A stretch of 64,000 nucleotides of DNA from Pezicula radicicola (lineage: Eukaryota; Ascomycota; Leotiomycetes; Helotiales; Dermateaceae): NCBI GenBank assembly GCA_003008705.1, contig PDUO01000014.1:346696-410695 (forward strand). Reading direction: 5' to 3'. The first letter of the stretch is position 1, and each line of letters opens with the position of its first letter. The notes under the pieces are model-generated. The model saw only the letters and a program-made list of their open reading frames with translations. It ran no database searches and was not told where the DNA came from. This document shows positions 1,842 through 37,918 of this stretch, one piece after another. A program made the translations under genes and the position numbers.

Positions 1842-2805
1842 ACTTCCGCTCGTTGACTTGTAATTTTGAATACATAGAATGTTACTAACGTCTATCCCTG
1901 CGTGCCGAAAAAACCGGTGTGCCGAAAAAAATGATAGGTACTTTGACTTAAAGCATCTTAAAATCTGTGCACACCTTAATATCTCCTATAATTTTTTATA
2001 AGTTATGTTCCGTGGCTGCTCCCACACACCCTAAACCCCTCCCACTAGAAAATCACGTTCGCATCGTCGCCCTCACGCCTGATTTGTATAGAGTCTCCTC
2101 TTATAGCATAACAGACTTCCTCCACCACAGCTCCACCATCGAGCTCTTACTATCCCCAATACTTGTAAAGCGGTCTTATCTGACCTCTAAAGCCTCACAC
2201 CTATACAGGAAATCGTTATCAGCCTTGTGGCTGCTGTGGCGCGCAGATTCATGCATGATTGCCACGCGGATCAGTACCTCCAGTTATATCAACTAACTGC
2301 TTTTAGTTTAGCTTCAAGCGAGATCAAAACAACCCCGCATCTCCCGTAATTAGGTTACTTGTATTTTCACTTATGTAATCACATGCCAAGCTTCACCACT
2401 TCAGGACTGTGGCTGACGCAAGTAATGTTGTTGCCTCAGACATCAAGGCTACATCGGTCACTACCAAATCTGGATGACCTAGAGCAGTTTCTGGGTCCTA
2501 GGTGTTCGCTATCAACTGCAGTATCAACAAGATATCGCAACGCGACTGAGCTTTACCTCCACCTTGTATACCTAAAAGTTTAGTGTTTTGACTATAGATT
2601 TCTCCAGCAGGCTTCTCCGATTGGTAGGTCTAGCGCCCTTGTCGTGATGTATAACGCAGCCCACCGCGAGGCTACCACTGCTCAAGACTCGACCCAACAT
2701 CCTCTTCCAACTCTGCCTCCAGCCCTACATACATAACGACTCGAACCCTCGGGGACTATCGAAAACCCCTCCGCTTCCCTTGAACTCCTCGAATCTCCTC
2801 GAATA

Positions 2806-5800
2806 ATGCGCCTCCTAGAATACACAGACGATGGCGACCTCACCGTGTCCGAGTTCTTTGAGAACGCCGTACCCAAGTATACTATACTTTCACACAGGTG
2901 GGGAGCAGGGGAGGTTACCCTCAAGGATCTGCTAGACGGTACGAGCAAGGGCAAGGTTGGCTATAGCAAGATACAGTTCTGCGGAGAACAAACGAGGCGC
3001 GATGATTTGCAATACTTTTGGGTGGACACTTGTTGTATCGATAAAACAAATGCCGTCGAGCTTCAGGAAGCTATCAACTCTATGTTTCGCTGGTACCAGG
3101 ATGCGACAAAGTGTTACGTTTACCTACCAGATGTTTCGCGAGCTCACTCCGACTTAGTCGACAATTCCAACGAAGCCTGGGAATTAACATTTCGGAAAAG
3201 CAAATGGTTCACTCGAGGCTGGACTCTACAAGAGCTTATTGCGCCGACATCTGTCGACTTCTTCTCAAAAGAGGGAGAGCTACTAGGCAATAAGGCCTCC
3301 CTAGAACGACATATCTGCGAGATAACAGGAATACCAGTCAATGCCCTTCGAGGGAGCCCGTTGTCTGATTTCAGCGTCACTGAGCGAATGTCGTGGGCGG
3401 CAAGTCGTGAAACTTTTCGCCAAGAAGACAAGGCATACTCACTACTAGGCATTTTCGACGTCAATATGCCGCTCATCTATAGCGAGGGAAAGGATAAGGC
3501 GTTGCAGCGACTGCGAGAAGAGATTGATAAGGCTTCAAAAGGTAGGTCCTTACTGTTTTGCCATTACTACTCATCAGGAAAAGACCTACATCTAGGTATT
3601 AGGAAGCTGCTGACTTCATCAGGGTTCAAGCGAAAGGACTTTTCAGTCGCCTTCAGCCTCTCTAATGTTTCCGACGTCGAACACTTCGTGGCAAGGAAGA
3701 CAGAGCTCGTAGAGATACACAAGGCACTTAGTGGCGATGGCTCCCGCAAAGCGGTTGTTCTTCACGGTCTCGGCGGAATTGGCAAGACACAGCTTAGCAT
3801 TGCATATGCGAAGCGGTACAAGGACAGCTACTCGGCAATATTCTGGCTGAACATTAAGGACGAGGATTCTCTAAAACAGAGCTTTGCTAAGATAGCCAAG
3901 CAGATATCAAGAGAACACCCGTTGGCTATCCGGCTTCGCAACGTGGATATGAATCAAAACCTCGACGAGGTAGTAGATGCTGTTAAGGCATGGCTGAGTC
4001 TACCGAATAATACGCGATGGCTAATAATATACGACAATTACGACAATCCTAGATTACCTGGATACACAGATCCTACGACTATAGATATCCGAGACTTCCT
4101 CCCCGAATCATATCAAGGCTCGATTATCATCACAACGCGGTTATCACAAGTCAGAAATGGCCATTCCATTCATATTCGTAAGCTCGAGGATGTGTACGAT
4201 AGTCTTGAGATTTTGTCACACGTTTCAAGACGGGAAGGACTAAGTAATGGTAAGAACGTCCTATATTTCGGTGATGTGGATCTGATCTTAATACTAGATC
4301 CGAATGCGATCATGCTTGCTAGAGAATTAGATGGACTGCCTCTTGCACTTGCTACTGCCGGAGCGTATCTCGATCAAGTAGCAGTAAGTCTTTCAGACTA
4401 TTTACGTCTATACAAACAGTCATGGATACAACTCCAAGAATCTAGTCCAGAACTAGACTCGTACGAAGACCGAACACTTTACTCTACATGGCAGATATCA
4501 TTCGATCACGTCAAACAGCAAAACGAACTCTCCGCTAAGCTTCTTTGTTTCTGGGCGTACTTCGATAGCCAGGATCTCTGGTTAGAGCTTCTCCAGTACA
4601 GTGACTCGAACGACCCAGACTGGGTACGAGAACTGACGAAGGACGAAGTAAGCTTCCATCAAGCAGTACGGGTATTAAGTAGCCACGGGCTAGTGGAGGT
4701 AGATATGTCTTCGCAAGGTTTGATCGAGTCACGAGGGTATAGCATTCATGGATGCGTTCACTCGTGGACAATTCATGTTCTTAACCAAGCGTGGGATCAC
4801 AGACTCGCTAGGCTAGCTATAAAGTTTATTGGATCACATATCCCGGCAAAGCATACTTTTCGGCCGTGGCTGACACAACGACGGCTTCTCCAGCATGCAA
4901 TGAGGTGTTCATATATGGTGCTTAATAGCTTAATTCCGGATGATGACATCGGATGGGAATGTCATAGACTAGGGATCCTCTATACCAACCAGGACAAGCG
5001 AGTCGAGGCCGAGCAAATGTACCAGTGGGCGCTACAAGGCTACGAGAAGGCATGGGGTCCAGAGCATACGTCAACGCTCAATACAGTCAATAATCTGGGG
5101 ATCCTCTATGCCGACCAGGACAAGCTAGTCGAGGCCGAGCAGATGTACCAGCGGGCGCTACAAGGCTACGAGAAAGCATTAGGTCCAGAACACACGTCAA
5201 CACTTAATACGGTCAACAACTTGGGGATCCTCTATAAATACCAGGGCAAGCTGGTCGAGGCGGAGCAGATGTACCAGCGGGCGCTACAAGGCAAAGAGAA
5301 GACATGGGGTCTAGAGCACATGTCGACGCTCGACACAGTCAACAACCTAGGGATCCTTTACGCTAACCAGGGCAAGCTGGTCGAGGCCGAGCAAATGTTC
5401 CAGCGGGCACTGCAAGGTAGAGAGAAGGCAAGGGGTCCAGATCACACGTTGACGCTCGAAGTGGTCGGTAACCTCGGGAACCTGTATAAAAACCAGGGCA
5501 AGCTAGCCGAAGCCGAGCAGATATACCAGCGGGCGCTGCAAGGCAAAGAGAATACATGGGGTCCAGAACACACGTCAACGCTTGACACGGTTTATAACAT
5601 AGGGCTCCTCTACAAGAATCAGGGCAAGCTAGTCAAGGCCGAGCAGATGTACCAGCGGGCGCTTCAAGGCTACGAGAAGGCATGGGGTCTAGAGCACACG
5701 TCGACGCTCGAGACAGTCAATAGCCTAGGGCTCCTTTATGCTGACTGGGGCAAGCTGGTCGAGGCCGAGCAGATGTACCAGCGGGCGCTGCGAGGCAAAG

Positions 5801-5985
5801 AGACGGCGCTCGGCCCAGAGCACACGTCGACGCTCCGGACATTGAACAACCTAGGGAACCTCTACACCGACCAGGGCAAGCTCGCTTTGGCCGAGCAGAT
5901 GTATAAGCGGGCGCAACAAGGCAAGAAGACGGCGCTCGGTGCAGATAATATTACGACTTATATCCCTGCGCTTAACACGTTGTAG
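2806..5985 (+). CDS. HET - NB-ARC - TPR NLR-like protein (cargo of element A)
   Basis: The start is MRLLEYTDDGDL, typical for HET proteins. The HET domain covers about residues 1-235, with LSHRWG, the FWVDTCCID block, MFRWYQ and WFTRGWTLQELIAP. An NB-ARC ATPase follows (P-loop GLGGIGKT near residue 325, GSIIITTR, GLPLAL). Eight very similar 42-residue TPR units (LGxLYxxQGKLVEAEQMYQ type) fill 4970-5950. HET domains execute cell death in fungal heterokaryon incompatibility, and NB-ARC plus repeats form the sensor. The continuous frame hides a likely 48-bp intron (4250-4297, GTAAGA...ACTAG, a multiple of three) that interrupts the segment before GLPLAL. The stop TAG at 5983-5985 replaces a Trp found at the same place in the element D gene (ALNTIWGSGSLF); cap-like sequence follows it, so the protein may lack its C-terminal cap. 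Confidence 0.88.
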   Translation: MRLLEYTDDGDLTVSEFFENAVPKYTILSHRWGAGEVTLKDLLDGTSKGKVGYSKIQFCGEQTRRDDLQYFWVDTCCIDKTNAVELQEAINSMFRWYQDATKCYVYLPDVSRAHSDLVDNSNEAWELTFRKSKWFTRGWTLQELIAPTSVDFFSKEGELLGNKASLERHICEITGIPVNALRGSPLSDFSVTERMSWAASRETFRQEDKAYSLLGIFDVNMPLIYSEGKDKALQRLREEIDKASKGRSLLFCHYYSSGKDLHLGIRKLLTSSGFKRKDFSVAFSLSNVSDVEHFVARKTELVEIHKALSGDGSRKAVVLHGLGGIGKTQLSIAYAKRYKDSYSAIFWLNIKDEDSLKQSFAKIAKQISREHPLAIRLRNVDMNQNLDEVVDAVKAWLSLPNNTRWLIIYDNYDNPRLPGYTDPTTIDIRDFLPESYQGSIIITTRLSQVRNGHSIHIRKLEDVYDSLEILSHVSRREGLSNGKNVLYFGDVDLILILDPNAIMLARELDGLPLALATAGAYLDQVAVSLSDYLRLYKQSWIQLQESSPELDSYEDRTLYSTWQISFDHVKQQNELSAKLLCFWAYFDSQDLWLELLQYSDSNDPDWVRELTKDEVSFHQAVRVLSSHGLVEVDMSSQGLIESRGYSIHGCVHSWTIHVLNQAWDHRLARLAIKFIGSHIPAKHTFRPWLTQRRLLQHAMRCSYMVLNSLIPDDDIGWECHRLGILYTNQDKRVEAEQMYQWALQGYEKAWGPEHTSTLNTVNNLGILYADQDKLVEAEQMYQRALQGYEKALGPEHTSTLNTVNNLGILYKYQGKLVEAEQMYQRALQGKEKTWGLEHMSTLDTVNNLGILYANQGKLVEAEQMFQRALQGREKARGPDHTLTLEVVGNLGNLYKNQGKLAEAEQIYQRALQGKENTWGPEHTSTLDTVYNIGLLYKNQGKLVKAEQMYQRALQGYEKAWGLEHTSTLETVNSLGLLYADWGKLVEAEQMYQRALRGKETALGPEHTSTLRTLNNLGNLYTDQGKLALAEQMYKRAQQGKKTALGADNITTYIPALNTL

Positions 5986-6269
5986 GGTCTCGGCTCTCTC
6001 TTCAAGTGCAAGGGACGGCCCGAGTAGAATCATCAGAAGGGAAATGGAGTCACAGATATAGAATCAATATAACCAGTGGCATCGAAGGCAATTACGATTA
6101 TAATATTGAAACCCTAACAAGCGGTGATTCATCCCTTCTATTTGCGCCCATAATACAATGACTGACTCTAATACAGTAATTAGTTGCGAGGCCTGCGCAA
6201 GCCTGCCTCAAGAAACCTATCTCGAATTCTATTCTTCTTCCAGCGATCCAGTTCTCCGCGATCTGCGCT

Positions 6270-8069
6270 TTAATACATACGTGCTACTGGTGCCCTCCAT
6301 GGCACTGGCGCATCGATCATCCGCGCCACTTCTGGCTGTGGCTCCGGCTCTGGCTCGTCTACCTCTTGTGCGGCACTTTTGCGCTTCCGAACATGTTTTC
6401 TACTGCCCTTTACGACCTCTTCCTCAGCGCTCGCCACTTCTGGCTCTGCCTCTGTGTCTGGCACATCTGCCTCTAACGCAGCACTCTTACGCTTCCGACC
6501 ACGTTTCCCCTTGCCCTTGATAACCTCCTTCGCAGCACGCGCGGCTCGTGCCACCTCGATGTCCTCAAAGCTCATCACCTTCGCCTTCCCTAGTACAATC
6601 GACCTGGTTGACCGGCGGACTTTGGCTTCGTTGTTCATGCTAATCAATGTCTGATTTTGATTATGGAGGAGGGCACGTTCGGCATCGAGGATGTCACGTT
6701 CGGCAAAGGATGCTTGGGCGGCATTGGCAAGCTTCTGTATATGCCTCTCTAGGCGCTGTATACTTGTCCCATCAAGCGTATGAGCATCCTGTTTGATCAG
6801 ATTATGCAGTGACGCAAGACCCTCTGCTGACACTGGCGTCACAGGCGTTTGTGGTACTTCGTCTTGATGACAAGAACCTACCTTTATCTCGTCGGCCCTC
6901 GGGACTATTGACTGGGTGGGGGGCTTTGGTGTCACCCTGAGGACTCTGTCTGGGTTAAACGGAAATAGACCACAGGCCGCCCATGCGGCCCTAATATTTC
7001 TCTTCGTGAACGCCTTTTCCCTTGCAGGGCTATACAGGGAGGTGAAATATTGCTTGCCAACTGTGTTCGCACCTCCTCGACACAGCCTATCAGCCTCGTC
7101 GCGGTAGGCTGCCTTCAAGGGTGCAAACACTCCGACGTCACAGGGCTGCAGCTTGTGGGAGGTATGAGAGGGGAGGCGGTACAGGATGATGTTGTTTTCG
7201 AAACAAAACTCTAAGGCTTCGAGGGTCTCGTGCGTCCCGAAGCCGTCACAAATCAGCACCCGGGGCTTCTGGTTAGCCTCTACTCTAGTTTGGGGATCAA
7301 ACACGCGCTTGAGCCACTCCAAGCTAATCTTAGAGTCGGTGTACCCAGAATCGGAGCATGCATAGTGCCATCCAGGGGTGGGGAACGTGGTCCAGTTGCT
7401 TCGATGGGTAGTAGCTGGCCAGATAATCATTGGTAGCAAAGACCTACCGCTTACACTAATGTACTCGATGGCAGTAACCATTGTACGCTTGACGCCCGCG
7501 CCTCTATAGTCTCGCGGATCGTCCTTACTTACTAGGACTGTGATAGAGCCAAGCATACATAACATTACTCCCGTCTCGTCCATGTTATAGACGTTCTCTG
7601 GGAGGATGACCGGATCTTCCAATACCTTTCCGATCACTTCAAACCAATGTATTATTTTATCATAGATATTGTTCTCGTGGCGTTCCCAGGCCATCGCCCT
7701 TACTCGTTGTGATTTGAGTGCTGGATGACGCTTCTGGAAGGCTTGAGCCTAGTTCTTATTCGGAGGCTTGGTCGCTTTCTTCGTCGTAGAACGCTGGCGG
7801 GCGATAATAAAGGCGAGGGACGGTAGGCACTTGATTCGCACAGGATTCCCGAGGTCAGCCATTAGTTTCAAATATTTTTCGAGGGCTTTCTCCTCCGATG
7901 GAGTAAGATACTATTGGCCTTGGGCCTTCTCTTCTTTCGAGCGCCGCCCATGATCGCGATGGTACAGGGTAGTCAAAGGGACTCCACTGTGTTTTGATCT
8001 GGCATCGTATGTTCGAGGCTCTCCCGGTAGGGAGGCCTCTGCAAGGGCTTTACTGGCGCGGTTGCTCAT
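6270..8069 (-). pseudogene. Fot1/pogo-type (DDE_1, CENP-B-like) transposase of element A, two nonsense codons
   Basis: A 600-codon frame starts at ATG 8069-8067. It shows an N-terminal helix-turn-helix region with the NKN(W)AQAFQKRHP motif, and a catalytic core with NMDETGV, VLICDGFGTHE and LPSHTSHKLQPCDVG, giving an Asp-Asp-Asp triad as in Fot1/pogo. The C-terminus is very basic (GKRGRKRKSAA). Two in-frame TAG codons break it, at 7913-7911 (a Gln position) and 7751-7749 (the conserved Trp before AQAFQKRHP). Both fit C-to-T or G-to-A change at CpA/TpG, as in RIP. From 7694 down to 6270 the frame is intact. TA target sites agree with this superfamily. It is probably the source type for the non-autonomous relatives D, E and F. 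Confidence 0.88.
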
Positions 8070-9770
8070 AAGGTATTACCTCACCGTACCTTACATGGAG
8101 ATGGGGATAGGGATGGGGATGGGGATTGGAACGACTGAGTGGCAACTTCTCCAGAACTAGAAACGTGGCAGCCTGTGGAAACTTCTAGAAGCACGCCACA
8201 CTGCGCTACATTTCAACGTGATATCTATAAAATGCGTAATTAAAAATACGACTCGCGTGGCTGTGAATACAATATTAGGTAAGGGCGATAAATTCTTCCT
8301 CGCTTATTAAGATGCGGCATTTTATGTACTACCCACTTTTGTCCGGATAAATCCGGTAGGTAGGTTTCCTTGTACTCTATGTCTTTAAACTTTAGAGTTA
8401 GATTTGAACTTAATAGAAGCTCTATACCACGGCCCCGAATTCTGGGGATAGGTTGATAGTCATAATAGAGTAAGGGGTAATAGCTATAGCAGCTTTTGAC
8501 ACTCTCAATAGGACGATCGATAGTATAGCCAAACTATAGTATTTTTCTGACTACAAGTCGAGCCCTTGTAGAGAAATAGCCAAGGAACAATAGCAAACAG
8601 ATTATAGCTTTATATATTTATATAGTAGAGATTTAAGAACCCTAAACTAGAAAGTTTTTTCGGTACACCGGTTTTTTCGGCACGCAGGGATGGACGTTAG
8701 GCAAGCAGAGCTAACTCAGCTCTGGGACTAGTATTAGTTTGTCTTATAGCACTCGTAGCGCCAGCAATCCATTGATTAAGAAATTCAAAAGTGCTAACGT
8801 CCCTCCCTGCGTGCCGAGAAACCCTGCGTGCCGAGAAAAACATGAGGTAAAGTTACTTTGACTTTACGCATTCTCAACTCTACACTAGCTTAACGTCCCT
8901 CCCTTCGTAGCGAGACACCCTGTGTGCCGAGACAGACCAATCAAATCGCAAGGATTCCGATTTTTTCTTCGTAATATCTCTTTTAAACCAACTAACGTCT
9001 GTCCCTGCGTCGAGAGACGCACCCCATGACGAGACAGACCATCAGTACTTTGAATTCAATTGATTCTAAATTTGTGAATCCACTGAAAATTCCTATATTT
9101 TTATGTCAGTCATATTGTATGACCACTCCTGAATAGTCTCAACCCCGGCTACTCTGAAAATTATGATTGCGTCGTCGCCGTCGCGCCTAATTGCGGAGGG
9201 CGTCAATTCGGAGTAAAATAGGACCCCTCGACCTACAACACCACCACGAGCTCTTTGTGCCTTTCAAACTCATAGAACAGTTTGATTTGGGTTTCCGAGC
9301 CTCGCCATGATGATGAAAAATCATGGTCAGCCTTGTGGTGACCAGGGAGTACTGTATCATGCGACGTCGCCACAAGGGCTAATACTTCCAACCAAGGGTC
9401 CCTGGTCATGGTTACGGTAATTATAGCGTATTTATAGTCGCTACTGTAATAAAATCGAGCTTTCCCTTAAAACTCATTGTGAATATTTCAACCCCTAGTT
9501 CGCTAGACAGGGATTACAAGGTACCTTACCAGAGGAAGCTAGATGAGCTTCGAGCTCTGGCCCCGCTTATCTCGCCAATGATGTGTATATATTATTAAGT
9601 AGATCATTGATGAAGGTCTAACTCAGTTAAGATATTCGAACGAGGCTGAGCATTGTGGTAAGTAGCTGATCGTGGTAAGTGTGTAACTTCATCAACCATA
9701 CTCTATAGTAAACCATTTACACGTATAGGACTGTATTACATTATATATTCCTTGAATTTTCATCCCAGCC

Positions 9771-12700
9771 ATGAGTCTACGTAAATTCTTTAGGAAGAAG
9801 GCTGATAGTACGGACGGCGGCGAGGCTGCGACAACCAAAAACATGAATATCATAGCTGATAAGGCTCCCGACATCCTACTTGGCTTAGATGTGTGGGTCG
9901 AAGGAGTCGATCCGGTAGTGGAGTATATCTCGCGGGAAGACTTTCATTCGTTGATAGCTAATTCTCGTCCTGGGATATAGTATCGTCGCAATACACAGCC
10001 TCAATAGTCACCGAGAAAAGACCTGGACGGCGGGGAACCAAGTGAACTGGTTACGAGATACGAACATACTATCGAGCATCATACCGAATACTAGAATAAT
10101 AAGCTAGGGCTACGATGCCAACACACACAGCACAAAGGAATTATCGGCGATGTATCTCTATGATCATACACAGAATCTGGTATCAGATCTAAGCCTTTAT
10201 AGAAGAAGTAACGAGGTAAAGAAGTCAATTATCGACTCTTAGGCTTCGGGCGGTTAACAACTATGATAGACGAATACACGGCCCATTGTTTTCGTTGCCC
10301 ACAGTCTCGGGGGGATAGTTCTCAAGAGTGTAAGGATTATTTTTCCAACCCTACTTATAGGCCTAACAAGAACAGGCGCTCATACACTCCGACTCTACGC
10401 GGTCCGGTCATCTGCATCATCACAGATCTATTAAGACGTCTATATATGGTATCATGTTTATGGGTACTCCTCACCAAGGAGGCGAGGGAGTAGTATGGGG
10501 CAAGAGACTCGTCGATGTAGCCTCGATTTTTATCAAAACAAACGATAAGCTTCTTAATATTCTTGAAAAAGACTCGGAGATTCTACAGCAGCAACTTGGT
10601 CAGTACAACTCTATCAGCGGCGATTTCAAGACGAAGTTTGCATACGAGACCAAAGCTATACCACTAGCTTTGGGTAAGGCCATGATCGTTGTTCCAAAGT
10701 CCTCTGCTGTAGTTCCAGGCCAAGTGGATGCCGAGCCGATTGCCATTATAGATGATCATATCAATATGGTCAAGTTTGCCAGGCAAAGCAACGAATTCAA
10801 GAAGGTAGCCAGTCATCTGAAGCTAATGGTGGATAAGGCACCTGAAAAGGTACAGAAAAACTGGTTGACTGAGAGTGGTGTCGAAGCTGGTAAGTGACAT
10901 ATAGACAGTTTAGGTGTATTCTGTGACTATCAAGGTATATATCGTGTCAAGGGCTTTTGTGTAGTCTACCTCCTTTTATAGAAGAGATAATATCATGTTT
11001 GAACGCGCTAAAAGCTGATTATACCGTAGCTCGGGCTGGCAGTCTCAAACCATCCTTCGATGTTGACTTTGATCTGACGGGTATTCCAAAGACAAGTGCC
11101 TTTATTGGACGTAGGTCAGACTTGGACTCGGTAGAAAGGCAGTTGGCCCCTAGAGAAGTACGGGACCGCCGTAAGATATGTGTGATTCATGGACTTGGGG
11201 GCATGGGCAAGACTCAGCTAGCTATCGAATACGCAAGGCTGCACAAAGATCTATATACATCGTTCTTCTGGATAGACGGGAAAACAGAGGAATCCCTAAT
11301 TCAGAGCCTGCTACGTATAGCTTTACGTCTTTCCAAGAGCCAGATAGCTGATATAGATGTGCAGAAAATACAAGGCCTAGAGGAGCCTAGGAAGGCAGCG
11401 CAAGAAGTCTTGAAATGGTTTGCTCTCAAGGGCAACACGCAGTGGCTTTTGGTTTTTGACAACATCGACAAGACGTCCTATGAAGAAGAGCCTGATCAGC
11501 ATACCGGAATGTCATCATATGATATCACACAATACTTCCCAGGAGGCGATACTGGATCCATCATCGTCACAACTCGGCTTCAGCGCCTTGTTTCGCTTGG
11601 AAGCCCAGTCTACTTGCAGAAACTTGGCATTGTCGACGGTTTGTTACTCCTCGAGAACCACACGAGGCGCAGTTTGAGGCTCGGCAGTAGACAAGCGACT
11701 TCGGAGAATTCATCAGGGATTGAGGATTGGGATACAGGTTAGTCCCTCACTCTATGCTATTTGCCAAAAGTGCAGCGAGAAGTGTGATCCAATAAGTTAC
11801 CTCTTTTCTTTTCAGCTAATACCTCTTAGATGCAGTTAATCTTGTCAAACGACTGGGTTGTCTCCCGCTGGCTTTAGTCTTTGCTGGCTCCTATGTCTCG
11901 AAGACAACTATCGTCAAGTATCTTGAGCTGTACAGCAAATCATGGCACGAGCTCCATGGACAAATGAAGAGGCGGGATGATTATCCTGAGCGGACAATTA
12001 TCACGACATGGCAAATCTCGTTTGATGAGGTAGAGCGTCGAGATACAAGAGCGGCAAAGCTGTTACAACTATGGGGTTATCTGAACAATCAAGAGCTTTG
12101 GTATCAATTACTCAAGTGGCCAGGATGGGAGAATGATCGGCCGGACTGGCTGCAACAGATCGCAGGTACTGAGATCAGCTTTTTAGCAGCAGTGGACATT
12201 CTTTTGGATTTCTCGCTTGTGGAACAGAATGACAACAGTGACAGCTATTCAATGCATGCGGTGGTCCATGATTGGATCCAAGCGTCAGTCAACCCAAGGA
12301 CCGACGATGACTTTTTACAGACAGCAATGACAACTATTGGCCTTGCGGTTCCACAAGAGAAGACAAGAGACTTTGCAACTATACAGCGACGACTTTTACC
12401 GCATGTTGCCCAATTACTACAGTATTGGAAATTTGTTACTGCGACTCCGGACTTTACAGACACTGCTGTATATCTAAGTAGTCTTCACATGTTAGGATAT
12501 CTATGTGCAGATCAGGACAAGCTCGTCGAGGCCGAGCAGATGTACCAGCGGGCGCTGCGAGGCAAGGAGAAGGCCTGGGGTCCCGAGTACACGTCGACGC
12601 TCGACACGGTCAACAACCTCGGGAGCCTCTACGCTAACCAGGGTAAGCTCGTCGAGGCCGAGCAGATGTACCAGCGGGCGCTGNNNNNNNNNNNNNNNNN

Positions 12701-22443: not shown

Positions 22444-22450
22444 GGTGGTA

Positions 22451-23299
22451 CGAAAGGGGGTGGAAGGGTTAGATGCCCACCCCCCCTGTCAGACTACAAT
22501 TCTGCCACTACTTATAGGGTAATAGATTAGTGCTGCTTTATAAAATAGAAGTATATCTTCATTAATATGGAGTCTGGGCTCCCTTCCTAAGTCTAACCTT
22601 CTCAAGTCTTTCAGGAATCGAATCTATATACTTATTAATATAATCAACAGTTATTTCCTTCTCCCAAATATCAAGAAGAGCCTCTTTTAGTTGCTCTATT
22701 GACCAACCCCCATGTGGCCTCCTATTTCGTAAAAGCTGCTTTAAAATCCTCCAAATATTCTCTATTGGATTAAGATCTGGAGAGCAAGGTGGCCAATCCC
22801 TAATAGTTACAATAAAACACTCAACTCGCGCCTTATTACAAAGGCCCTTGTTTCTCTTTGTATCCTTTAATCCGTGTGCTTTATTCCCGTCTTCTACACA
22901 AAAGAAACCTAAGCCCTTCTTATCCTTAAAGATCTCTGCTAAAGGCCCTCGAAGAATCTCTGCCTCATATTTTTGTTGTGTAAGGCCTCCGTCTTCTGCA
23001 ATAAAGTAAAGCTTACTCTTGTAGTTATACCCTATTGCTGCCCAACAAGAGACTGAATCCCGGCCACTTCGGAAGGTAAATTGTACACAATCAAGTCTTC
23101 TTCTCTCTCCTCGTTTTCGTAAGACCTTCTGCCTTCGAAGCATTGCAGTAGAGACTGTTGTTTCATCTGTATAGAAACCCTTGCGCCAATACTCCTTAGG
23201 CCTATCCCAATTAGCCCAAGAAAAGATCCATCTCTTATGTTTATTTATAGCTGAAAGTACAGGCTTGCAATCAGGAAGATGGTAATGATATCCCTTTCG
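22451..23299 (-). mobile_element. Element H: truncated Tc1-like element
   Basis: Ends CGAAAGGG and CCCTTTCG are inverse of each other over 8 bp and are flanked by TA (22449-22450, 23300-23301). The flanks join to sequence collinear with element A's leader (GTGGTAC | CAATCGCCGCAT). Only the C-terminal part of a Tc1 transposase is inside. The short TIR match could be chance, so the right boundary is less sure. Confidence 0.55.
22562..23297 (-). pseudogene. Tc1-like transposase, N-terminal half missing
   Basis: The open frame encodes the catalytic part of a Tc1/mariner enzyme: FYTDETTV with the first Asp, FFCVEDGNKAHGLKD at the second position, and the classic WPPCSPDLNPIENIWRILKQ with the third acidic residue. 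The second catalytic position reads Glu-Asp-Gly-Asn. The DNA-binding N-terminus is absent because the element ends right after codons for VRKGYHYHLPDC. The first Met (23143) lies inside the catalytic domain, so no functional start remains. It differs in sequence from the neighbouring G enzyme, so it is a separate family. Confidence 0.8.
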
Positions 23300-23869
23300 T
23301 ACAACAATCGCCGCATTATAATAAGCGAGGAAATATTTTTACGCCCGTAAATAATGCCGTAATCACAGCCACGCGACTGACGTGAAAGTGTGGCGGAGTG
23401 TGGCGTACTTCTGGAAGTTTCCACACGCAGCCACGTTTCTAATTCTGGACAAGTTGCAACTTCGTCGTTCCAATCCTCATCCCATTTCTATGTAAGGTAC
23501 AAAGGTAATGATTGCTGCGGTCACTAACAAGCTGACAGGCTCACTTATAAGCACACTGATTGAGCAGCTGGTCTGCCGCATCGACAGTGGCCTGCCAGCC
23601 CTGCCGTAGGCCGAGCGTTGTCCTTCATGATACTCTCGAAATCTGACACAATTGAGTAGCCCTTGAGCTTCCCAGGATTCCTTTGGTTTCGATTTATATG
23701 AGGAACAAGATCCACTCGAGCTATCACAGACACAGGGGGGAGAGGTAGGCCATGGGCTAGTGACTTTAGACGAGTTTGTGGCACAGAGTTCTGAGATCAA
23801 TGGCCCAATTGCTGTGACTGAATGTCAAGAACAGTTCCATCAGCAGTATAGTTATTATTGCAAACGTGC

Positions 23870-24712
23870 TCAATCGTCAAAGAAGTCTTTCCCGCCATAC
23901 TTGTTCCCTAGTAGACCCTTTCCACCCTCTTCCACTTTAATAACATTATACTTGTGAGACGCCCCTATCGTACCGCCCTTCCAATTACTACTATACGCAT
24001 CACCGGCTAGACCCTTACCACCGAATGTGATATTCGAGTACTGGTGACCTGCGATTACTTCATTTATCGTTTTTTGAAGCAGGCTATCGACACCTGTGGC
24101 TGCATTCTCGATCAGCTCAAGAGACTGCTTGTCGCCAAACTCTGCTGCTTCTTGTTGGACAAGCGTGGTTTGGGCCTGAGGTGCGGGGAATAGTTTTCCG
24201 ATCTCGTCGATGAGTGAGACGATCTGTTCGAGAAGGTCTTTCAGAGTGGACCTGTGGTAGAGAGCCCAGCTAGCAAGGTTCAAGAATCGACCCTTCTTTT
24301 GACGCTGTATAGCCAAGCCTTTCATCTTGTTATCCAGCACGACCATCTTCAGATCCATATCGCCTGTCGAATACGCTGAGAGATCCTCACCAGCCTTCGC
24401 AGTCAACTTGTACTTCTTGGAGATGCTCTCGGTGTCTGCGAAGAGCACAATGATTTGGAGCAACGCATCCTTTGCAAGTTGGATCTCGGTCGTAGTAGCA
24501 TCTTGCCTGCCTAGTTTAGGATCGTCGTAGATTTTGACAGACTCGCCCCATCGTGTAAGACGGAGTCTCGCGCAGTTGAGAGCAAGCTGACTGGTCTGGA
24601 AATCTCGACCGAAGTGGCGGCCAAACTGGACGTACTCGAAGCAGTCAACACAAGCAGTAAAAGCAGATGCAATGCCGATGGCACCAGCGACAATGCCGAA
24701 CGGCTCCGCCAT
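23870..24712 (-). CDS. HET-S-like protein: HeLo domain plus two HET-s-type amyloid motifs
   Basis: The start is set at 24712 because the protein then begins MAEPFGIVAGAIGIASAF and runs FEYVQFGRHFGRDF...RWGESVKI, the opening of HeLo domains of the HET-S family; the upstream in-frame extension has no such match. Length is 280 residues, close to the 289 of Podospora HET-s. Residues about 1-225 form the HeLo domain, which in HET-S becomes membrane-toxic on activation. The C-terminus carries two amyloid motifs in tandem: one around NITFGGKGLAGDAYSS and one ending LLGNKYGGKDFFDD, very near the HET-s prion domain end. The gene is divergent from an NWD2-like receptor 259 bp away, the same arrangement as het-S/NWD2. 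No stop or frameshift is seen. Predicted role is the executor of amyloid-triggered cell death. Confidence 0.9.
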   Translation of the reverse strand: MAEPFGIVAGAIGIASAFTACVDCFEYVQFGRHFGRDFQTSQLALNCARLRLTRWGESVKIYDDPKLGRQDATTTEIQLAKDALLQIIVLFADTESISKKYKLTAKAGEDLSAYSTGDMDLKMVVLDNKMKGLAIQRQKKGRFLNLASWALYHRSTLKDLLEQIVSLIDEIGKLFPAPQAQTTLVQQEAAEFGDKQSLELIENAATGVDSLLQKTINEVIAGHQYSNITFGGKGLAGDAYSSNWKGGTIGASHKYNVIKVEEGGKGLLGNKYGGKDFFDD

Positions 24713-24971
24713 TGTCAAGGCAATGCGTTGCGAGAGAGAGATTGGATATAGGTAGTTCGTCATTGGAACCTTCAGCTGAGCCTCACAACCCAATGTGCAT
24801 GGTCCGGTTCCTGACCCCGCCAAAACGATCAGCACAATCGATTGTAATGCCGACCGACAACAGCTTTGGCTTCTTACTTCTTGTCCCACCAGCGATAGCG
24901 GCCCCAGTCTGTGCGTTTATCCACTCTTACCGCGCCTGCTACAGTGATATGCGCGGGTGATCTCCTTCTCC
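24713..24971. promoter_or_regulatory. Shared divergent promoter of the HET-S-like and NWD2-like genes
   Basis: 259 bp lie between the two start codons. I see no clear core element, so the assignment rests only on the divergent layout, which would allow co-expression of effector and receptor. Confidence 0.45.
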
Positions 24972-27900
24972 ATGTCAGTTCACGATCTGACCCGCTGGCG
25001 TCAATCGTCGCGTGGCCATGATTACAACAATATTCAAATCAACGAAAAGGCCCACCTCGGAGACACATACAACATCAGTCAGTTGATCATAGATTACTAG
25101 CATTACAGAAAGTTAACAATATTACAGGTCAAGAAAACCCGCTTAGCCTTCTACCGTTCGCAGCAAATGCACTCTTCAATTCGTCCGCCCGCCAACACAA
25201 ATCTCCCTGCCTCCTCAATACACGAGTCGACGTCCTACAAAAGATATCACAATGGGCGGATAGCGAAGACCAGCAATGTCTTTTCTGGTTGAGCGGTATG
25301 GCCGGCACAGGAAAGTCGACGATTGCACACACAGTCGCACGCGAGTGCTTCGAGCAAGGCCGGCTTGCAGCCAGTTTCTTCTTCTCGCGAGGCGGTGGTG
25401 ATGCCGGCAATGCTAGCAAGTTTGTCACGACTGTTGCTATACAGCTTGCGATACACATTCCGCCAGTTGAGCGGCACATTTGGGACACTATCAAAGCTTG
25501 TAGCATAATCGCAAGCCAGTCTCTCGCAGATCAGTGGCGCCAGCTCGTGCTTAGGCCGCTTTTAAAGCTGGAGGGGAATGACACATACCCATCATATGTC
25601 ATGATTATAGATGCCTTGGATGAATGTGAAGATGAAAACGACATACGAGTCATTCTACGACTATTGGCTGAAGCTCGATCGCTGAAGAAAGTCCGGCTGC
25701 GGGTGCTGATCACAAGCAGACCAGAGGTTCCAATCCGAAACGGGTTCTGTAACATATCAGCTAGTGAGCACCATGACTTCATCCTTCACGACATGGAAGC
25801 GGCCATTGTGAACCGTGACATCTTCATCTTTCTAGAGCACCAGATGGGATTAATTGGTCAAGAATGGCGTCTTGGAGCTAGCTGGCCGGGCGAGCAAGCT
25901 CTTAGACGGCTGGTTATAAATGCTAGTGGTCTCTTTATCTGGGCTGCAACAGCGTGTCGGTTTATCCATGAGGGAAGACATCGCGCAGCGAGGAGATTGT
26001 CGATGATGCTCGAGGGCAGCACATTGACTCGAACACCAGAACACCATTTGGACGACGTCTATATAAAAGTCCTCAAAAGCACGATTCACAAAGAGGACCT
26101 GGAGGAAGACAAGGAAGATACCTACTCAATGCTAAAGCTAGTTCTCGGGACCATTGTACTCTTATACTCACCGCTATCTATCAAATCATTATCTGAGCTA
26201 CTCTCACTTCCTGCAGGGGCTATAGAAGGCGGACTTACGGATCTTCATGCCATCCTCAATATTCCACTCAATATTCCAAAGGATACAAGCGGGGCGCTTC
26301 GTTTACATCATCCTTCATTCCGCGACTTCTTGCTCAACAAATATAGGTGCAGTGATTCAAACTTCTGGGTAGATAAGAAGCAAGCGCATCAGGCATTAGC
26401 TGATTGCTGTATACAGCTAATGTCCCAGACACTGAAGAAGGATGTTTGTGAATTATATGCTCCTGGTTATCAAGCCGCCCAAGTTGAGAGCAGTCGTATT
26501 CAGAAATGCCTTCCGCCCGAAGTTCAATATTCATGCCTTTACTGGGTTCAGTATCTGCACAAGAGTGGTTCTTATACTTACGATAACGAGAAAGTTTACC
26601 AGTTTCTGCAGGCTCATTTACTACACTGGCTTGAGGTACTTGGGTGGATGGGCAAGACGTCAGAAGGGATTCAGGCAATATTATCCTTAGAGGCTCACAT
26701 TCCGGTAAGCTATCTGTCTACTATTTGTAGAAGTCTAACTAACTTATTCTTAGGTTAATGAAAGCCCTAATTTGCACGCATTTATCCACGATGCAAAGCT
26801 ATTTACGTTATATAATCGTTCAGCGATTGAACAGGCACCCCTCCAACTGTATTACTCTACTCTTGTCTTTGCGCCAGGAAATAGCATTGTTCGAGGGAAT
26901 TTTAAGGGCTGCATCCCAGATTGGATTCAACTAGAACCAAAAGTGCAAGTACACAGGAACGCGGCATTACTGACGCTCGAGGGCCACACCGGCTGGGTCA
27001 GATCAGTAGCCTTCTCACCCGACGGCAAGCAGGTCGTGTCTGGCTCGGACGATCAGACGGTGCGGCTCTGGGACACGGCCACGGGAGCGGCGCTGCAGAC
27101 GCTCGAGGGCCATACAGACCTAGTCAGGTCCGTCGCCTTCTCCCCCGACGGCAAGCAGGTCGTGTCTGGCTCGGACGATCAGACGGTGCGGCTCTGGGAC
27201 ACGGCCATAGGAGCCGCAGGAGCGGCGCTGCAGACGCTCGAGGGCCACACCGGCTGGGTCAGTTCAGTAGCCTTCTCACCCGACGGCAAGCAGGTCGTGT
27301 CTAGCTCGGACGATCAGACGGTGCGGCTCTGGGACGCGGCCACGGGAGCGGCGCTGCAGACGCTCGAGGGTCACACTGACCTAGTCAGGTCCGTCGCCTT
27401 CTCCCCCGACGGCAAGCAAATCGTGTCTGGCTCTAACGACGGGACGGTCCGACTGTGGGACACTGGTACAAAAGTGGTGCTACAAAAATCGCTCAAGCGC
27501 CGCCCAGCCTCGGTCTATTCAGTGGCCTTCTCGCCCGACGGCAAACAAGTCGTATCTGGCTCAGGAGACAGGAAAATCCGGCTCTGGGAGGTAGTCACGA
27601 AAGCAATACTACAGACTTTCGAGGGCCACTCGGGAACTATCTACTCAGTAGCCTTCTCGCCTAACGGCAAGCAGGTCGTGTCTAGCTCATATGATAAGAC
27701 AATCCGCCTCTGGGATGCCGTCAAAGGAGCAGAGCTACAGAAGCTCGAGGGCCACTCGGAACCAGTTTACTCAGTGGTATTCTCGCTTAATGGCGAGCAG
27801 GTAGTCTCCGGCTCAAAAGACAAGACGATCCGGCTCTGGGACGCCATCACAAGAGCAGCGCTACAAATGTCTGAAAGCCACATAGACTCGGTTCACTCAG

Positions 27901-28742
27901 TGGCCTTCTCGCCTAATGGCAGGCAGGTCGTGTCCGGCTCAGAGGATAAGACGGTCCGGCTCTGGGATGCCGACACAGGAGTAGCGTTCCAAATTCTCGA
28001 GGGCCACTCGGGAACTATCTACTCAGTAGCCTTCTCGCCCAACGGCAAACAAATTGTATCCGGCTCAGGAGATTGGACAATCCGCGTCTGGGATATTGTC
28101 ACAAGAGTCGAGCGACAGCCGCTCAAAGGCCATTTAAGTTCGGTTAGGTCAGTAGCCTTCTCTCCTGACGGCAAGCAAGTTGTCTCCGGATCTGTAGATA
28201 AGACGGTGCGGCTCTGGGATACGGCCACGGGAGCCGCGCTGCGGACGCTCGAGGACCACGCGGATTAGGTCACATCAGTCGCCTTCTCACCCGATAGCAA
28301 GCAAGTCGTCTCCGGATCTCGGGATAGGACGGTGCGGCTCTGGGACGCGGCCACGGGAGCAGTACTACAGACGCTCGAGGGCTACACGGATTGGGTCACA
28401 TCAGTCGCCTTCTTACCCAACAGCAAGCAAGTCGTCTCTGGGTCTCAGGATAAGACGATGCGGCTCTGGGACGCCGTCACGGGCGCGGCACTGTAGACGC
28501 TCGAGGGCCATTCTTCCACGGTCGACTCTGTGGCCTTCTCACCTAACGGCAATCTACTACCTACTTTACGTATATCTGATTATTGGGTAGTAGAAGGTAA
28601 AGCGAATATTCTCTGGCTGTCTCCCGATTACCGATCTACGTGTAAAGCTTTCTGGAATCAAACTGTCGTTTTAGGATATTCATCAGGGAGACTTTCATTT
28701 CTTCAGTTTAGACAAGGGCCGAAGCTTGTAGTACAGAACTAG
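24972..28742 (+). CDS. NWD2-like receptor: amyloid motif - NACHT - WD40 (cargo of element F)
   Basis: The true start is upstream of the long frame. Exon 1 (24972-25077) codes for 35 residues containing HDYNNIQINEKAHLGDTYN, an amyloid-type motif of the kind found at the head of NLRs. A 50-bp intron (25078-25127, GTCAGT...TTACAG, branch TTAAC) joins in frame to exon 2 (25128-26704), with NACHT P-loop GMAGTGKST, IIDALDECE and ITSRPE. A 49-bp intron (26705-26753) leads to the WD40 exon with 12 units plus a partial one, mostly 42 residues each. TAG at 28266-28268 replaces Trp in unit 11 and TAG at 28494-28496 replaces Gln; the conserved tail runs on in frame to 28742. In the known system the receptor's amyloid motif templates the HET-S prion domain; its partner lies next door. 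Confidence 0.88.
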
Positions 28743-29802
28743 TACATAATAGACTTTGTATTGTCTTCGTTATATAATATCTCTTTTTCTTCTTATTGCT
28801 ATTTCATAGAGGGTTCTAGGGGAGTATGTAAGTTTATAAAGTAGACGTTGATAATTGCCAATTAGTTTCTAGAATCTTCTAGATCGTTTTATTCAAGATT
28901 TTGTGTACGATTTTCGTGCCTAGATCGACCACGTCAGGTATTGAAGTCATTACTAAGCTGAATGTGGTATATTGGGCGCCACAGAACCTCCAGCCACTGT
29001 GTAGCCTTTATGCCTAAGGCTTCATAAATGAAATTACAGCGTAAATAATATAGGATATACGGGGCTGTTTCGTACTAACCAAAATTGTCAGCCGAGGTAC
29101 TAATCCGTGTACGAACCTTACCTAAATCTACGCGCCAAAGCAGCTACAAAGCTAATAACAATTTCCTATAAAGAAATAAGGCCTTAGAGCTCGGATAAGA
29201 TCCCTTTATAAAGTATTAGGATAGTATAAGCTTGGTGGTGGAGCTATGGTAAAGGAACTCTATTATACTATAAAAGAGACTCTTTGTAAATCAGGCGTGA
29301 GGGTGACGACGAGAATATAATTTTCTAGGTAGGAGGGATTCACGGTATCTGAGAGTGGCTATGGAACATAACTTATGAAAATTATAGGAGACATTAAAGT
29401 ATGCATAGATTTTAAGATACCTCAAGTCAAAGTACCTATTTTTTTTTCGGCACACCGGTTTTTTCGGCACGCAGGGATGGACGTTATAGCTACTATGGCG
29501 AGCAAACAGTTCTAGGGCCGCCATGCGGTTCGGTACTTCTGATCGACGGAACTAACGATTCTCGGCTAGAAGGGATTGACCCTGCACCTCCGGCGAAGCT
29601 TTGGTAATTTCGCCACCATAATTCCGCTTATATATTCAACAGGCAAGCCTACAGTAGCTTATAGCCCAGCCACGAGGCTACCGCCCAGCTAAGTATACCA
29701 GCCTCAACCCGACATGAAGTATTCACTCTTCGCATCTATACCAACTCGACGGCTCAACTACCGAGAACCCTTCCTCCCGCGATCCTCGAATCTAGTCGAA
29801 CA

Positions 29803-32800
29803 ATGCGTCTACTACAGTACAACGACGATAGCGATTTCAGCCTGACCGAGTTCGATGAGAGCAATATACCTAAGTATACTATACTATCGCATATATAGGA
29901 ACAGGATAATTGTAAGGAAGTTATATATACGGAAGTGATAAGCGGGACTGGCCAGGACAAGGAGGGTTTCAAGAAGATTAGGTTCTGTGGAGAACAGGCT
30001 CGACAAGATGGTCTACCATACTTTTAGGTTGATACCTACTGTATCAACAAGTAAAATAAGGCTGAACTCAGGTACTCCATCAACTCTATGTTCCGTTGGT
30101 ATCGCAATATAAGTCGATGTTATATCTATTTGTCGGATGTTTCGATAAGGATACGAGAAGTAAGTGATCAGTCGTTAGAGTATACTTGGGAATTGAGTTT
30201 TCGGGAGAGTAGATGGTTCACTCGAGGCTGGACACTCCAAGAGCTCCTTACCCCAGCTTCGGTAGAGTTTTTCTCCCTCGAGGGTAAGCAACTTAGTAAC
30301 AAGAGCTCTCTCCAGAAGCAAATCTGTAAAGCAATAAACATTTCCCCCTTTACGCTCCAAGCCAAATCGTTATCTCAGTTTCATATCAATGAGTGAATAT
30401 AGTGGATTGAACATCGAGAAACGGGTCAAGAGGAGGATAAAGTATACTCATTGCTGGGTATCTTCGGTGTCTCTATGGTCCCTACCTATGGTGAAGGAGT
30501 CGCGAAAGTATTCGATCGGCTGTGGGGTAGATTTCACGAAATACAGAAATATATGTAAGACTTACGGCCCACCGATCCCCGTCTAAATAAGGAACGTATC
30601 GAGGCTACCAAAGGAGGGTTACTACAAGAGGCTTACCGATGGGTGATAGAAACCTCCGACTTTCAACAATGGTGTACCAATCAACACAATCGGTTACTAT
30701 GGATCAAGGGCGACCCTGGGAAGGGTAAGACAATATTACTTTGTGGTATTACCGATGAACTATAGAATTCGTTGGCCAAGTCTATACTTCTGTCGTACTT
30801 CTTTTACCAGGCCACAGATTCCCGGATCAACCGTACTATAGCTATACTACGAGGTCTGATTTATCTACTTGTCGACCAACAGCCATCTCTTGTCTCGTAT
30901 ATATAAACGAGTTATAATATAGCTGGCAAGGCGCTCTTTGAAGATACGAATACCTAGGTTGCTTTGACCAAGATTTTCTCTAGTATTCTATACGATCCAA
31001 ATCTACCTAATACTTATTTGATTGTCGATACGCTCGATGAATGTGTAGTCGACTTACCAAGATTGTTAGGTTTCATCGCGCAGACTTCGTCTGTATCCAC
31101 TCGTGTTAAATGGGTAGTCTCTAGCCGCAACTAGCTAGAAATCGAGAAGATACTTGATACCGCAATATAGAAGTAAAGGCTGTGTCTCGAGCTGAATGTA
31201 GATTCCGTCTCCTCTGCCGTTGTGACTTTTATTGAGGCTAAAGTTCACGATCTAAGTATATACAATAAATATAAGAGCGAGACACGGGACGTTGTTCTGC
31301 AATACCTTTCACTAAACGTAAATGGTACCTTTCTCTGGGTGGCGTTGGTTGGCCAGGAGTTGTCGACTCTTTCAGGGTGGAAAGCCGTCCAGAAGTTGGA
31401 CGCCTTACCGCCTGGACTTGATGTACTCTACCAACGGATACTGGATTAAATCATGGTATCAGAGGATTCTGAACTCTGTATGAGTATACTGGCCGTCGTA
31501 TCGACTGTGTACCAGCCTATCATAGTCGACGAGCTAGTGACTTTGGTGAAGTTACCCAATGGAGTTGATGGTGAATATAAAGCTCTAACAGAGATCATTG
31601 GTTACTGTAGATCCTTTCTCGTAATCCGAGAGCGTATAATTTTTTTCGTACACCAGTCAGTAAAGGACTTTCTGATTGGAAAGGTACCTCAAGAACCACT
31701 TCTCCTCAGAGTATAAGATGTGTATAACAGTATCTTCTCTCGATCACTGTAAGTAATGTCTATGACACTACAGCGTGATATCTATAATCTAAGGGCTCCC
31801 GGAATTGACATTAACTAAGTTAAGCAGCCCGATCCTGATCTACTCACGGCGGTACGGTACTCCTGTCTTTACTGGGTTGATTATCTCCTCCAATGTCAAA
31901 TGAGAGAAGAAACAATTGAGGACCTCAAGGATAGTGGCCTGGCTTATAGTTTCCTCCGTCAATACTTCTTGTATTAGCTTGAGGCGCTGAGCCTGTTGAA
32001 AAGTATGTCAGAAGGTGTAGTTATGATTCGGAAGCTCGAGAATCTTTAGGTATATCTTTTATGTAGTCTCATCTATCGGATTATCCTAATATAAACAAAG
32101 TTTGATGAAAGTCCTGATTTATATACGTTTATACAAGATACAACACGATTTACTATAACCAACCGATCAATTATTGAACAGGTACCTCTACAAGTATATT
32201 ATTCAGCTCTCGTCTTTGCCCCAGAGAAGAGCATTGTTCGAGAAACGTTCGAGGGATATATTCCGTCTTGGATCCAGAGAAAACCTAGAGTAGAAGTACA
32301 TTGGACTACGATACTTCAAACACTGGAGGGTCATTCTGGCGGGGCTACATCCATGGCCTTTTCTCCCGACGGCAAGCAGGTCGTGTCGGGGTCTTACGAC
32401 GAGACGGTACAGCTCTGGGACGCAGCAACAGGAGCCTTGCAGTAGACGCTCAAGGGCTATTCTAACTTGGTCACGTCTGTAGCCTTCTCTCCCGACGGTA
32501 AGCAGGTCGTATCGGGGTCTTACGACAAGACGGTGCAGCTCTGGGACACAGCGACAGGAGCCTTGTAGTAGACACTCAAGGGCCATTCTAACTCGGTCAG
32601 GTCCGTGGCCTTCTCTCCCGACGGTAAGTAGGTCGTGTCAGGGTCTTACGACAAGACGGTGCGGCTCTGGGACACAGCGACAGGAGCCTTGCAGTAGACG
32701 CTCAAGGGCTATTCTGACTCGGTCACGTCCGTGGCCTTCTCTCCCGACGGTAAGTAGGTCGTATCGGGCTCTTACGACAAGACAGTACGGCTCTGGGACA

Positions 32801-33070
32801 CAGCGGCAGGAGCCTTGTAGTAGACGCTCAAGGGCCATTCTAGCTGGGTCACGTCCGTCGCCTTCTCTCCCGATAGCAAACACATTCCGACCTTACACGT
32901 AACTAGTGAATGGCTAGTAGAAGGTACTACTAGGTATCTCTGGCTACCTACTAATTATCAACCTACTTGTGAAGCTATATAGGACAGGATTGTAGTTTTA
33001 GGGTATTCGTCAGGGAGATTATTATTTCTTCAGATTCGACCAGGGCTGAACCAACTAATATGAATGTAGG
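29803..33070 (+). pseudogene. Decayed HET - NACHT - WD40 gene (cargo of element B)
   Basis: The start MRLLQYNDDSDFSLTEFDE is followed by a HET domain (MFRWYRN, WFTRGWTLQELL). A NACHT region has P-loop WIKGDPGKGKT (about 30700) and VDTLDECV. A link (PDLYTFIQDTTRF, SALVFAPEKSIV) leads to five WD40 units (about 32320-32880) and a tail (RYLWLPTNYQPTCEAI). There are many in-frame stops, nearly all TAG or TAA where relatives have Trp (TGG) or Gln (CAG/CAA). Examples are the HET FWVDTCC Trp and the LQQTL position repeated in each WD40 unit. This is the pattern of RIP-type C-to-T change at CpA. No product is expected. Confidence 0.85.
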
Positions 33071-33371
33071 AAGATACTTACCTATACATGGTATATGAAG
33101 CTTTGAATATGATATCTCTTTTACTTTTATCTCTATTTCATAGAGGGTTCTAGGGGAGCTTAAGACTTTGTAGCATTTTAATGACTACTTACTTCTGGAA
33201 TCTTCTAGAACAAGCTAACGGAATTATATGACTTTCTAACAATATCGCCTATATAAGTAAAAAGGTACACGACGTCTAAGGACAATATAATTAGTTTTCC
33301 ATCTCATACTTACAGTACAAAATAGTCAGATGTCTCGTAGTAACTATTTACTGAACATACGAAGTAAAGCT

Positions 33372-33804
33372 TTATAGAAGGTACAGGGTCAGTCCCTGCT
33401 AGCTGAGAATCATTAGGTCTGTCGATCAGAAGTACCGAACCGCGTAGCGGCCCTATAATTATTTACGCACTACAGTAACCATAAAGCTTATAAAAGTCTC
33501 GGACTAAAAAATATAGATCTGAAGCTTAGATAAGAACTTTTAAGATATATAAGGGATAATAAGAGCTTACTAGTATAGCTGTGGTAGAGGGCTCGTACAA
33601 AAGCCTAAATAGAGGCTTCTTATCAATCAGGCGAAAAAGCGACGATGCGAATATAAAATTTTCTTTGGAAGGGGTCACATTACTAATAAATAGTTGTATA
33701 ATGCTACTGACCTTTTATTTTTATAGAATGATAAGCTGGTGTGGAATTTGAGATACTGAAAGTCAAAGTACCGTATGGTTTTCTCGGCACGCAGGGAGGG
33801 ACGT
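33372..33804. repeat. Right long inverted arm of element B
   Basis: Read in reverse complement, this arm aligns through its length with 8797-8892 + 20392-20636 + 29487-29612. Shared blocks include CTTTGACTTT near the tip, CATCGTCGCTWTTTCGCCTG, and GGTTCGGTACTTCTGATCGA near the inner border. Similarity stops just after an AAGCTTT block. Confidence 0.8.
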
Positions 33805-33806
33805 TA

Positions 33807-35004: not shown

Positions 35005-35061
35005 TAAGTAAGCCTCTTTCATCCGAAATGACCCTGGCCTGTGCTAACCGATATCACTGAG

Positions 35062-35717: not shown

Positions 35718-35755
35718 GGAGATATCTAGCACCAACGGACATTCATCTAGTTTAT

Positions 35756-37708: not shown

Positions 37709-37918
37709 AGCAGACTTACGTCTGACTCGATAATATCCGCAGGCGACAGCCTGCTCAAGGTCCCAGCGAGATACTTGTCATGGTTGTTCACGTCGGAAGA
37801 GTACTCCATCTCGTATCAAGTGCGCAGCCTAGGAGAGTGAGATAGATGGGTTGGTGAAAGGCAGCGAAAGGCAGATGGTGGATTCCCAAATTTGGCCTCG
37901 CTCAAAGAAATCGGCAGG

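Follow-up and report, generated by a model that had tools for sequence, protein, structure and literature searches.

Small TA-targeting transposons enclose NLR genes and nest within one another in the fungus Pezicula radicicola

Fungal repertoires of NOD-like receptors (NLRs) vary strongly, and we consider here where new receptors come from and by what means they move. We analyzed a 64-kb stretch of contig C36 of Pezicula radicicola (hereafter the window; the assembly spans 61 Mb in 152 contigs) in which six elements with terminal inverted repeats (TIRs), named A to F, share one terminus type. We consider it very probable that these are nested (B, C, D, E, and F) and neighboring (A) TA-targeting elements, five of them enclosing one NLR gene each, that are likely moved by a Fot1/pogo-type DD35D transposase via cut and paste. 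Rejoined empty sites, homology that is limited to the ends, and recurrence on other contigs together establish that the Fot1/pogo-type TIR elements with an NLR inside are discrete units, in support of the original prediction, made from the letters of the window, that small elements of this type act as NLR carriers. They represent a known kind of transposon with an unexpected, repeated NLR cargo and a habit of nesting in itself.

Results

Terminus type and bracket layout. A pattern search of the window for the terminus (TAACGTC..TCCCT..GT) returned, between 1886 and 33806, six left copies (at 1886, 8795, 8891, 8993, 14628, and 20635) and six right copies (at 8699, 14598, 20276 with one mismatch, 20391, 29486, and 33806). 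The 12 termini nest as balanced brackets, namely A, B, C in B, D and E in C, and F in B, and one NLR gene lies inside each of the brackets A, B, D, E, and F. Matches to the 23-base terminus pattern (three or fewer mismatches) number 81 genome-wide compared with 1 for a reversed control and are therefore not due to chance; for a shorter pattern the corresponding numbers are 96 and 21. The TIR contains a doubled TGCCGA-like motif, and over its 45 bp the two ends are identical at 43 positions in A, 41 in E, 38 in both F and D, 44 in an element on contig C25, and 31 in B. Bracketing and domain content thus confirm the prediction that A, B, D, E, and F are NLR-enclosing TIR elements of one terminus type. 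The further proposal that all five are stacked in one nest holds for B, D, E, and F, but not for A, which stands outside the nest and is separated from B by 95 bp. In addition to its NLR, F carries a second host-type gene, with a HeLo domain, and two foreign DDE_3 transposases. The sixth element, C, carries no cargo.

Empty sites and end-limited homology. To reconstruct empty sites, inner elements were taken out in silico and the flanks were rejoined with one TA per junction. With C and F removed, 368 of 442 aligned positions agreed between the two inverted repeats of B, and what gaps the alignment had lay away from both junctions. With D and E removed, C matched uninterrupted copies of this miniature inverted-repeat transposable element (MITE) on C104 (reverse complement; 230/249 positions) and C90 (220/250). 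On C12, an NLR element at 33371-39031 cuts an end like the right end of D, and the rejoined sequence aligned at 276 of 316 positions without gaps. The rejoined sites of C, D, E, F, and the C12 element show a TA target-site duplication. The nest-in-end habit seen in the window recurs at C12:33250-39224.

We also asked where homology stops, using the ends of 13 elements with 137 to 600 bp of flank. In 49 terminal alignments, two of which were assigned to the right end of D and are the left end of E, 30 bp away, the overrun past the query terminus was at most 13 bp. Because the filter used might hide long overruns, the comparison was repeated without it, and all six rows that crossed a terminus by more than 20 bp proved to be the same DNA seen from neighboring elements of the window.

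Genome-wide census. The census comprised 27 terminus pairs of 2.0 to 14.5 kb, with B entered by its 4.3-kb core; it excludes MITE C, any pair no longer than about 1 kb (on C147, C104, and C90), four pairs of more than 15 kb (two on C79 and one each on C104 and C142), and all single termini. Twenty pairs were read, 18 in full sequence and those on C118 and C143 by domain hits or in part. Eleven of the 20 hold an NLR: A, B, D, E, and F in the window and, beyond it, pairs on C12, C67 (two, C67a and C67b, the latter assigned from HET and WD40 parts only), C79 (C79b), C142 (C142a), and C118, where a NACHT frame lies inside. Three more (C25, C132, and C143) hold a HET gene with no receptor core detected. 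In the domain lists for the remaining seven pairs, which were unread or partly read, there were no NACHT, NB-ARC, or HET matches. The right end of C142a, at about 52818, was read by eye, as it is mutated and was missed by the pattern, and one counted pair, C102:15133 to about 21435, holds transposase pieces. Three further NLRs adjoin a single terminus (on C79 before 566046, on C90 before 237070, and on C92 after 11222). It had been asked whether many copies of the termini enclose NLRs, and these 11 pairs do; pairs elsewhere without NLRs, one of two observations that together had been held to speak against receptor carriage, also occur (6 of the 20 read have no HET or NLR gene found), which bears out half of that counter-case.

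Of 152 collapsed NACHT/NB-ARC loci genome-wide, 12 are no more than 10 kb from a listed terminus, and of these 11 lie inside a pair and 1 outside. This distance count omitted seven chance-like or duplicate termini (two each on C2 and C68 and one each on C14, C120, and C102) and does not include some further ends; two further C102 entries are one site. Eight of the 27 pairs contain a NACHT/NB-ARC locus compared with 0.39 expected (Poisson P = 1e-8), and 4 of 22 do so outside the window compared with 0.31 expected (P = 3e-4), although it counts against these figures that they were calculated post hoc, assume an even spacing of loci, and draw on domain lists that give minimum numbers. The elements are strongly enriched for NLR and HET genes and are not the sole vehicle of NLRs.

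Transposase. Element A encodes a transposase (6270..7748, minus strand) with an open DDE_1 core (PF03184, E = 3.8e-30) and the residues D57, D168, and D204 (DD35D). A 684-amino-acid open frame on C25, 65% identical to it (PF03184, E = 2.6e-30), shares its terminus pair with a HET gene. Copies or pieces of the transposase occur within or next to these termini on C36, C25, C100, C102, C142, C145, C151, C90, C83, and C67, and this co-location suggests that a Fot1/pogo-type DD35D transposase of the A/C25 kind is likely to move the family. A match to the transposase of A is present in A and C25 and was found in none of D, E, C12, C67a, C67b, and C142a. The N-terminal CENP-B-type DNA-binding domain PF03221 is precomputed for several close relatives (e.g., P0001), is unreported in the C25 frame at E = 0.05, and is interrupted in A. 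Named sources of relatives, among the matches listed (120 of 1318), include Lachnellula, Hyphodiscus, Pseudogymnoascus, Rutstroemia, and Botrytis.

Ends and cargo of the individual elements. Beyond the TIR, the subterminal ends are modules of about 400 bp that come in two kinds (a and b) and two subfamilies (A-like and D-like). The order is a to b in A and D and b to a in E and F, whereas B, C12, and C67a have a at both ends, as does C67b by motif. At C132:29756-32979, b-type ends stand on both sides of a HET-ankyrin gene. C79b (C79:533402-538683), with a HET-NB-ARC-TPR gene, is extended beyond its D-type ends by additional, repeated terminal sequence.

Element A (1886..8699, plus strand) has TA at both borders, and its ends are common to E, F, and the C12 element, the likeness stopping at the terminus. 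Besides the transposase it carries an NLR (2737..5985, plus strand) that forms a single open frame of 1,082 amino acids from stop to stop and whose Pfam domains agree with the predicted HET-NB-ARC-TPR architecture. Pfam domains likewise agree with the HET-NACHT-WD40 cargo predicted for E (14628..20276, plus strand), an element inserted in C, whose NLR (15498..19216, plus strand) extends over three open frames presumably separated by introns. Element D (8993..14598, plus strand), also inserted in C, has ends of the other subfamily, shared with C25. Its NLR (9756..13190, plus strand), which includes a 190-bp run of N at 12684-12873, had been described as hydrolase-NB-ARC-TPR; the NB-ARC-like part (Pfam score 21.2, below the cutoff of 23.5) and the TPR part stand, whereas the N-terminal 176-amino-acid frame is hydrolase-like by eye only and matches no Pfam family.

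The outer element, B (8795..33806), is bounded by inverted repeats roughly 440 bp long, of which C and F cut the left one into three. HET and WD40 were found in its NLR (29754..32902, approximate limits, plus strand) by tblastn, together with a NACHT match with three stops and base changes typical of repeat-induced point mutation (by the corresponding indices), so that the predicted HET-NACHT-WD40 order is borne out for what is a mutated pseudogene and not an intact gene. The 250-bp MITE C extends over 8891..20391 as split by D and E. Element F (20635..29486, plus strand) is inserted in the left repeat of B, and its NLR (25022..28742, plus strand) has NACHT and WD40 by Pfam, the WD40 array being interrupted by two in-frame stops. 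Divergent from it stands a HeLo-domain gene (23870..24916, minus strand; PF14479, E = 1e-44), and the frame just before the NACHT agrees by eye at 6 of 15 positions with a motif that is repeated in the C-terminal part of the HeLo protein. An amyloid motif-NACHT-WD40 protein had been predicted for F; its NACHT and WD40 parts agree, the amyloid-like motif is possible from the by-eye match, and the array is not open. One of the two DDE_3 transposases of F lies within a foreign transposon (21004..22443, minus strand) with a perfect 48-bp inverted repeat, which is therefore probably a recent insertion, and the other is at 22562..23338 (minus strand).

Exchange among receptors and their retention. 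The HET domain of A is 83% identical to that of C12, yet it is followed by NB-ARC-TPR in A and by NACHT-WD40 in C12. A tree of 12 HET sequences, all but one of them from element-borne genes, places A, C12, and C67a in a single clade (100/99). In F and C142a, on different contigs, cargo and adjoining end align as one 1,249-bp block; because NLR and end align in this way, several carriers look like copies of carriers and not fresh captures, and the idea that each element is a separate capture was dropped for several of them. Among open copies, the ratio of nonsynonymous to synonymous differences (pN/pS) was 0.20 to 0.37 for HET and 0.28 to 0.38 for NACHT, many pairs being close to saturation at synonymous sites, and it was 0.37 for NB-ARC of A versus C79b (one stop). 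Given these low values in open copies, the receptors have been kept as proteins for a long time, although part of that history may lie outside elements.

Discussion

Several observations weigh against mobile receptor carriers as described above. No empty site was found for A or B, and those for C, D, E, F, and the C12 element come from this one genome. The N-terminal part of the transposase of A (upstream, to about 8069) has two in-frame stops, so that A is probably not autonomous by itself, and the notion that it is was dropped; among the long close transposase copies, only that of C25 is open throughout, and no terminus is listed for several of 37 transposase matches (e.g., those on C85 and C128). 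The six read pairs without a HET or NLR gene found (C64, C76, C90a, C98, C102, and C138) hold F-box-like, DUF7730, or unidentified frames (one frame each was put to Pfam), which rules out that all cargo is NLR. As many as 140 of the 152 NACHT/NB-ARC loci are more than 10 kb from any listed terminus, and for three genes outside the census, at C36:766684 and C126:35128 (both HET and NACHT) and C121:39111 (HET, with no receptor core listed), the 5' flank shows no terminus over a length of about 1.6 kb, which rules out that every HET-NLR sits in an element. The end-less gene at C36:766684 also groups with two element-borne genes (90/89, moderate support), and purifying selection may therefore have acted outside elements; for NB-ARC of A versus C79c, pN/pS was 0.60. 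Finally, A and D have the start of the NLR toward end a, E and F toward end b, so that cargo and ends were not passed on together as a fixed unit. The sequence comparisons indicate that cargo and ends have been recombined.

Some of these facts could instead mean that NLRs and TIR elements pile up in the same regions and that the termini merely flank resident receptors. NLRs are indeed numerous and the region is transposon-rich, but removal of D, E, F, and the C12 element restores continuous relatives with one TA, almost all loci near a listed terminus lie inside a pair, and homology ends at the termini; we regard such coincidence as extremely improbable overall, and for D, E, F, and C12 it is already contradicted. 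Nor do we think it at all probable that the region is the cargo of a giant Starship and the TIR elements incidental passengers. Starships are on record as carriers of NLRs (PMC12506042, PMC9594970, from the portions available, as for all papers cited here), and a DUF3435 match of the captain type, with one stop, is located some 60 kb upstream of the window at C36:285840-286724, the nearest on the contig. A search of the window for a Starship captain gave no DUF3435 match, Starship membership was rejected for want of such a tyrosine recombinase at a 5' edge, and single NLR units with their own TA-flanked ends, found also on other contigs, would not be removed by a surrounding Starship.

Capture in the manner of Pack-TYPE elements deserves more attention, and we hold it to be possible though doubtful. 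According to this explanation, the ends repeatedly acquired host genes without regard to kind, and NLRs are frequent among these only because they are numerous and tolerated. The other cargoes of six read pairs, the differing orientation of NLRs to the ends, and the mixed HET tree fit it, whereas the HET or NLR genes in 14 of 20 read pairs and the alignment of NLR plus end as one block across contigs do not. Gene capture by TIR elements of the Pack-TYPE kind mostly concerns gene fragments; the elements here likewise have transposon ends around host-type genes but enclose NLR frames that are long, open, and present in several copies. No capture event was seen among them.

Receptor carriage by Fot1/pogo-type elements, which we prefer, would proceed as follows. 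A transposase of the A/C25 type would move elements by cut and paste into TA targets and would act in trans on elements without their own, perhaps by way of the repeated TGCCGA-like end motif. Insertion into the ends of sister elements would stack receptors side by side, and recombination among these could swap ends and domains. Shuffled domain architectures are thereby offered a reason, because sister receptors come to lie next to each other and have their ends in common. On the strength of these sequence patterns, the elements are a likely route for the spread and reshuffling of predicted cell-death receptors. A TA-targeting receptor carrier is a concrete vehicle, and since TA is duplicated with each insertion, the arrival of a receptor can be scored strain by strain. 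More speculatively, and in our estimation rather unlikely, the elements could be mobile allorecognition loci, members of a transposon family that owes its survival to the cell-death receptors it carries. By landing in one another's ends they would build nests in which ends, effector domains, and repeat arrays recombine into new receptors, and the presence or absence of an element would set a new incompatibility type in a single step.

Fungal Fot1/pogo elements (Tc1/mariner) share with those described here a DD35D DDE_1 transposase, a TA target, and inverted termini; unlike them, the present elements are 4.7 to 8.9 kb long with an NLR inside, mostly have no transposase match, and have two different subterminal ends of about 400 bp. 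ToxhAT is of the hAT type and is not known to target TA. This 14-kb element resembles ours as a small transposon with an adaptive cargo gene that is nested in another element, but its cargo is an effector and it is a single element, compared with a family of receptor carriers here (PMC12506042, PMC9594970). Starships, too, are mobile units with NLR and HET genes, but those described are 143 kb and 294 kb long and have a DUF3435 recombinase, whereas here small TIR elements with, usually, one receptor gene go with a DDE transposase (PMC12506042, PMC9594970). The HNWD family of Podospora (PMC1805685) has the same HET-NACHT-WD40 order and a repeated WD40 array; in E, C12, and C142a the three domains lie in line on one strand and are probably spliced into one gene. 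The available part of that paper describes a transposon relic before one HNWD pseudogene and mentions no carriage by TIR elements. The HeLo gene of F adjoins a NACHT-WD40 gene as in the HET-S/NWD2 pair (PMC3321046), but the pair here is inside a transposon, and its amyloid-like match is by eye only; in the het-s study, a transposon interrupts nwd2 (PMC3321046).

In the portions available of other work, transposons are mentioned as a genome trait only in a 2025 account of NLR organization in Sordariales (PMC12258605), NLRs are associated with transposable elements in Podospora assemblies (2025; PMC12222747), NLR terms are absent from a screen for fungal transposon co-option (PMC10799480), and transposon terms are absent from a 2014 survey of fungal NLRs (PMC4986451). 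No NLR-carrying Fot1/pogo element is described in the titles and abstract starts of the literature searched, a coverage outside which most subscription papers and bioRxiv preprints lie.

Other observations

In the viral_contigs collection, three exact 18-base matches to the terminus were followed by bases that are not those of an element end, with no NLR match, and none of 38 pattern matches in a scan of its proteins was related to the transposase; one weak transposase-like match there (L064, E = 0.005) was taken as chance. Upstream of element A, window positions 1-640 hold arrays of a 9-bp unit (AATCCAGTA and variants). At 51948-53063 (plus strand) of the window, one open frame combines a HIUase/transthyretin domain with a homeodomain (Pfam E = 2e-16 and 2e-11), which looks unusual.

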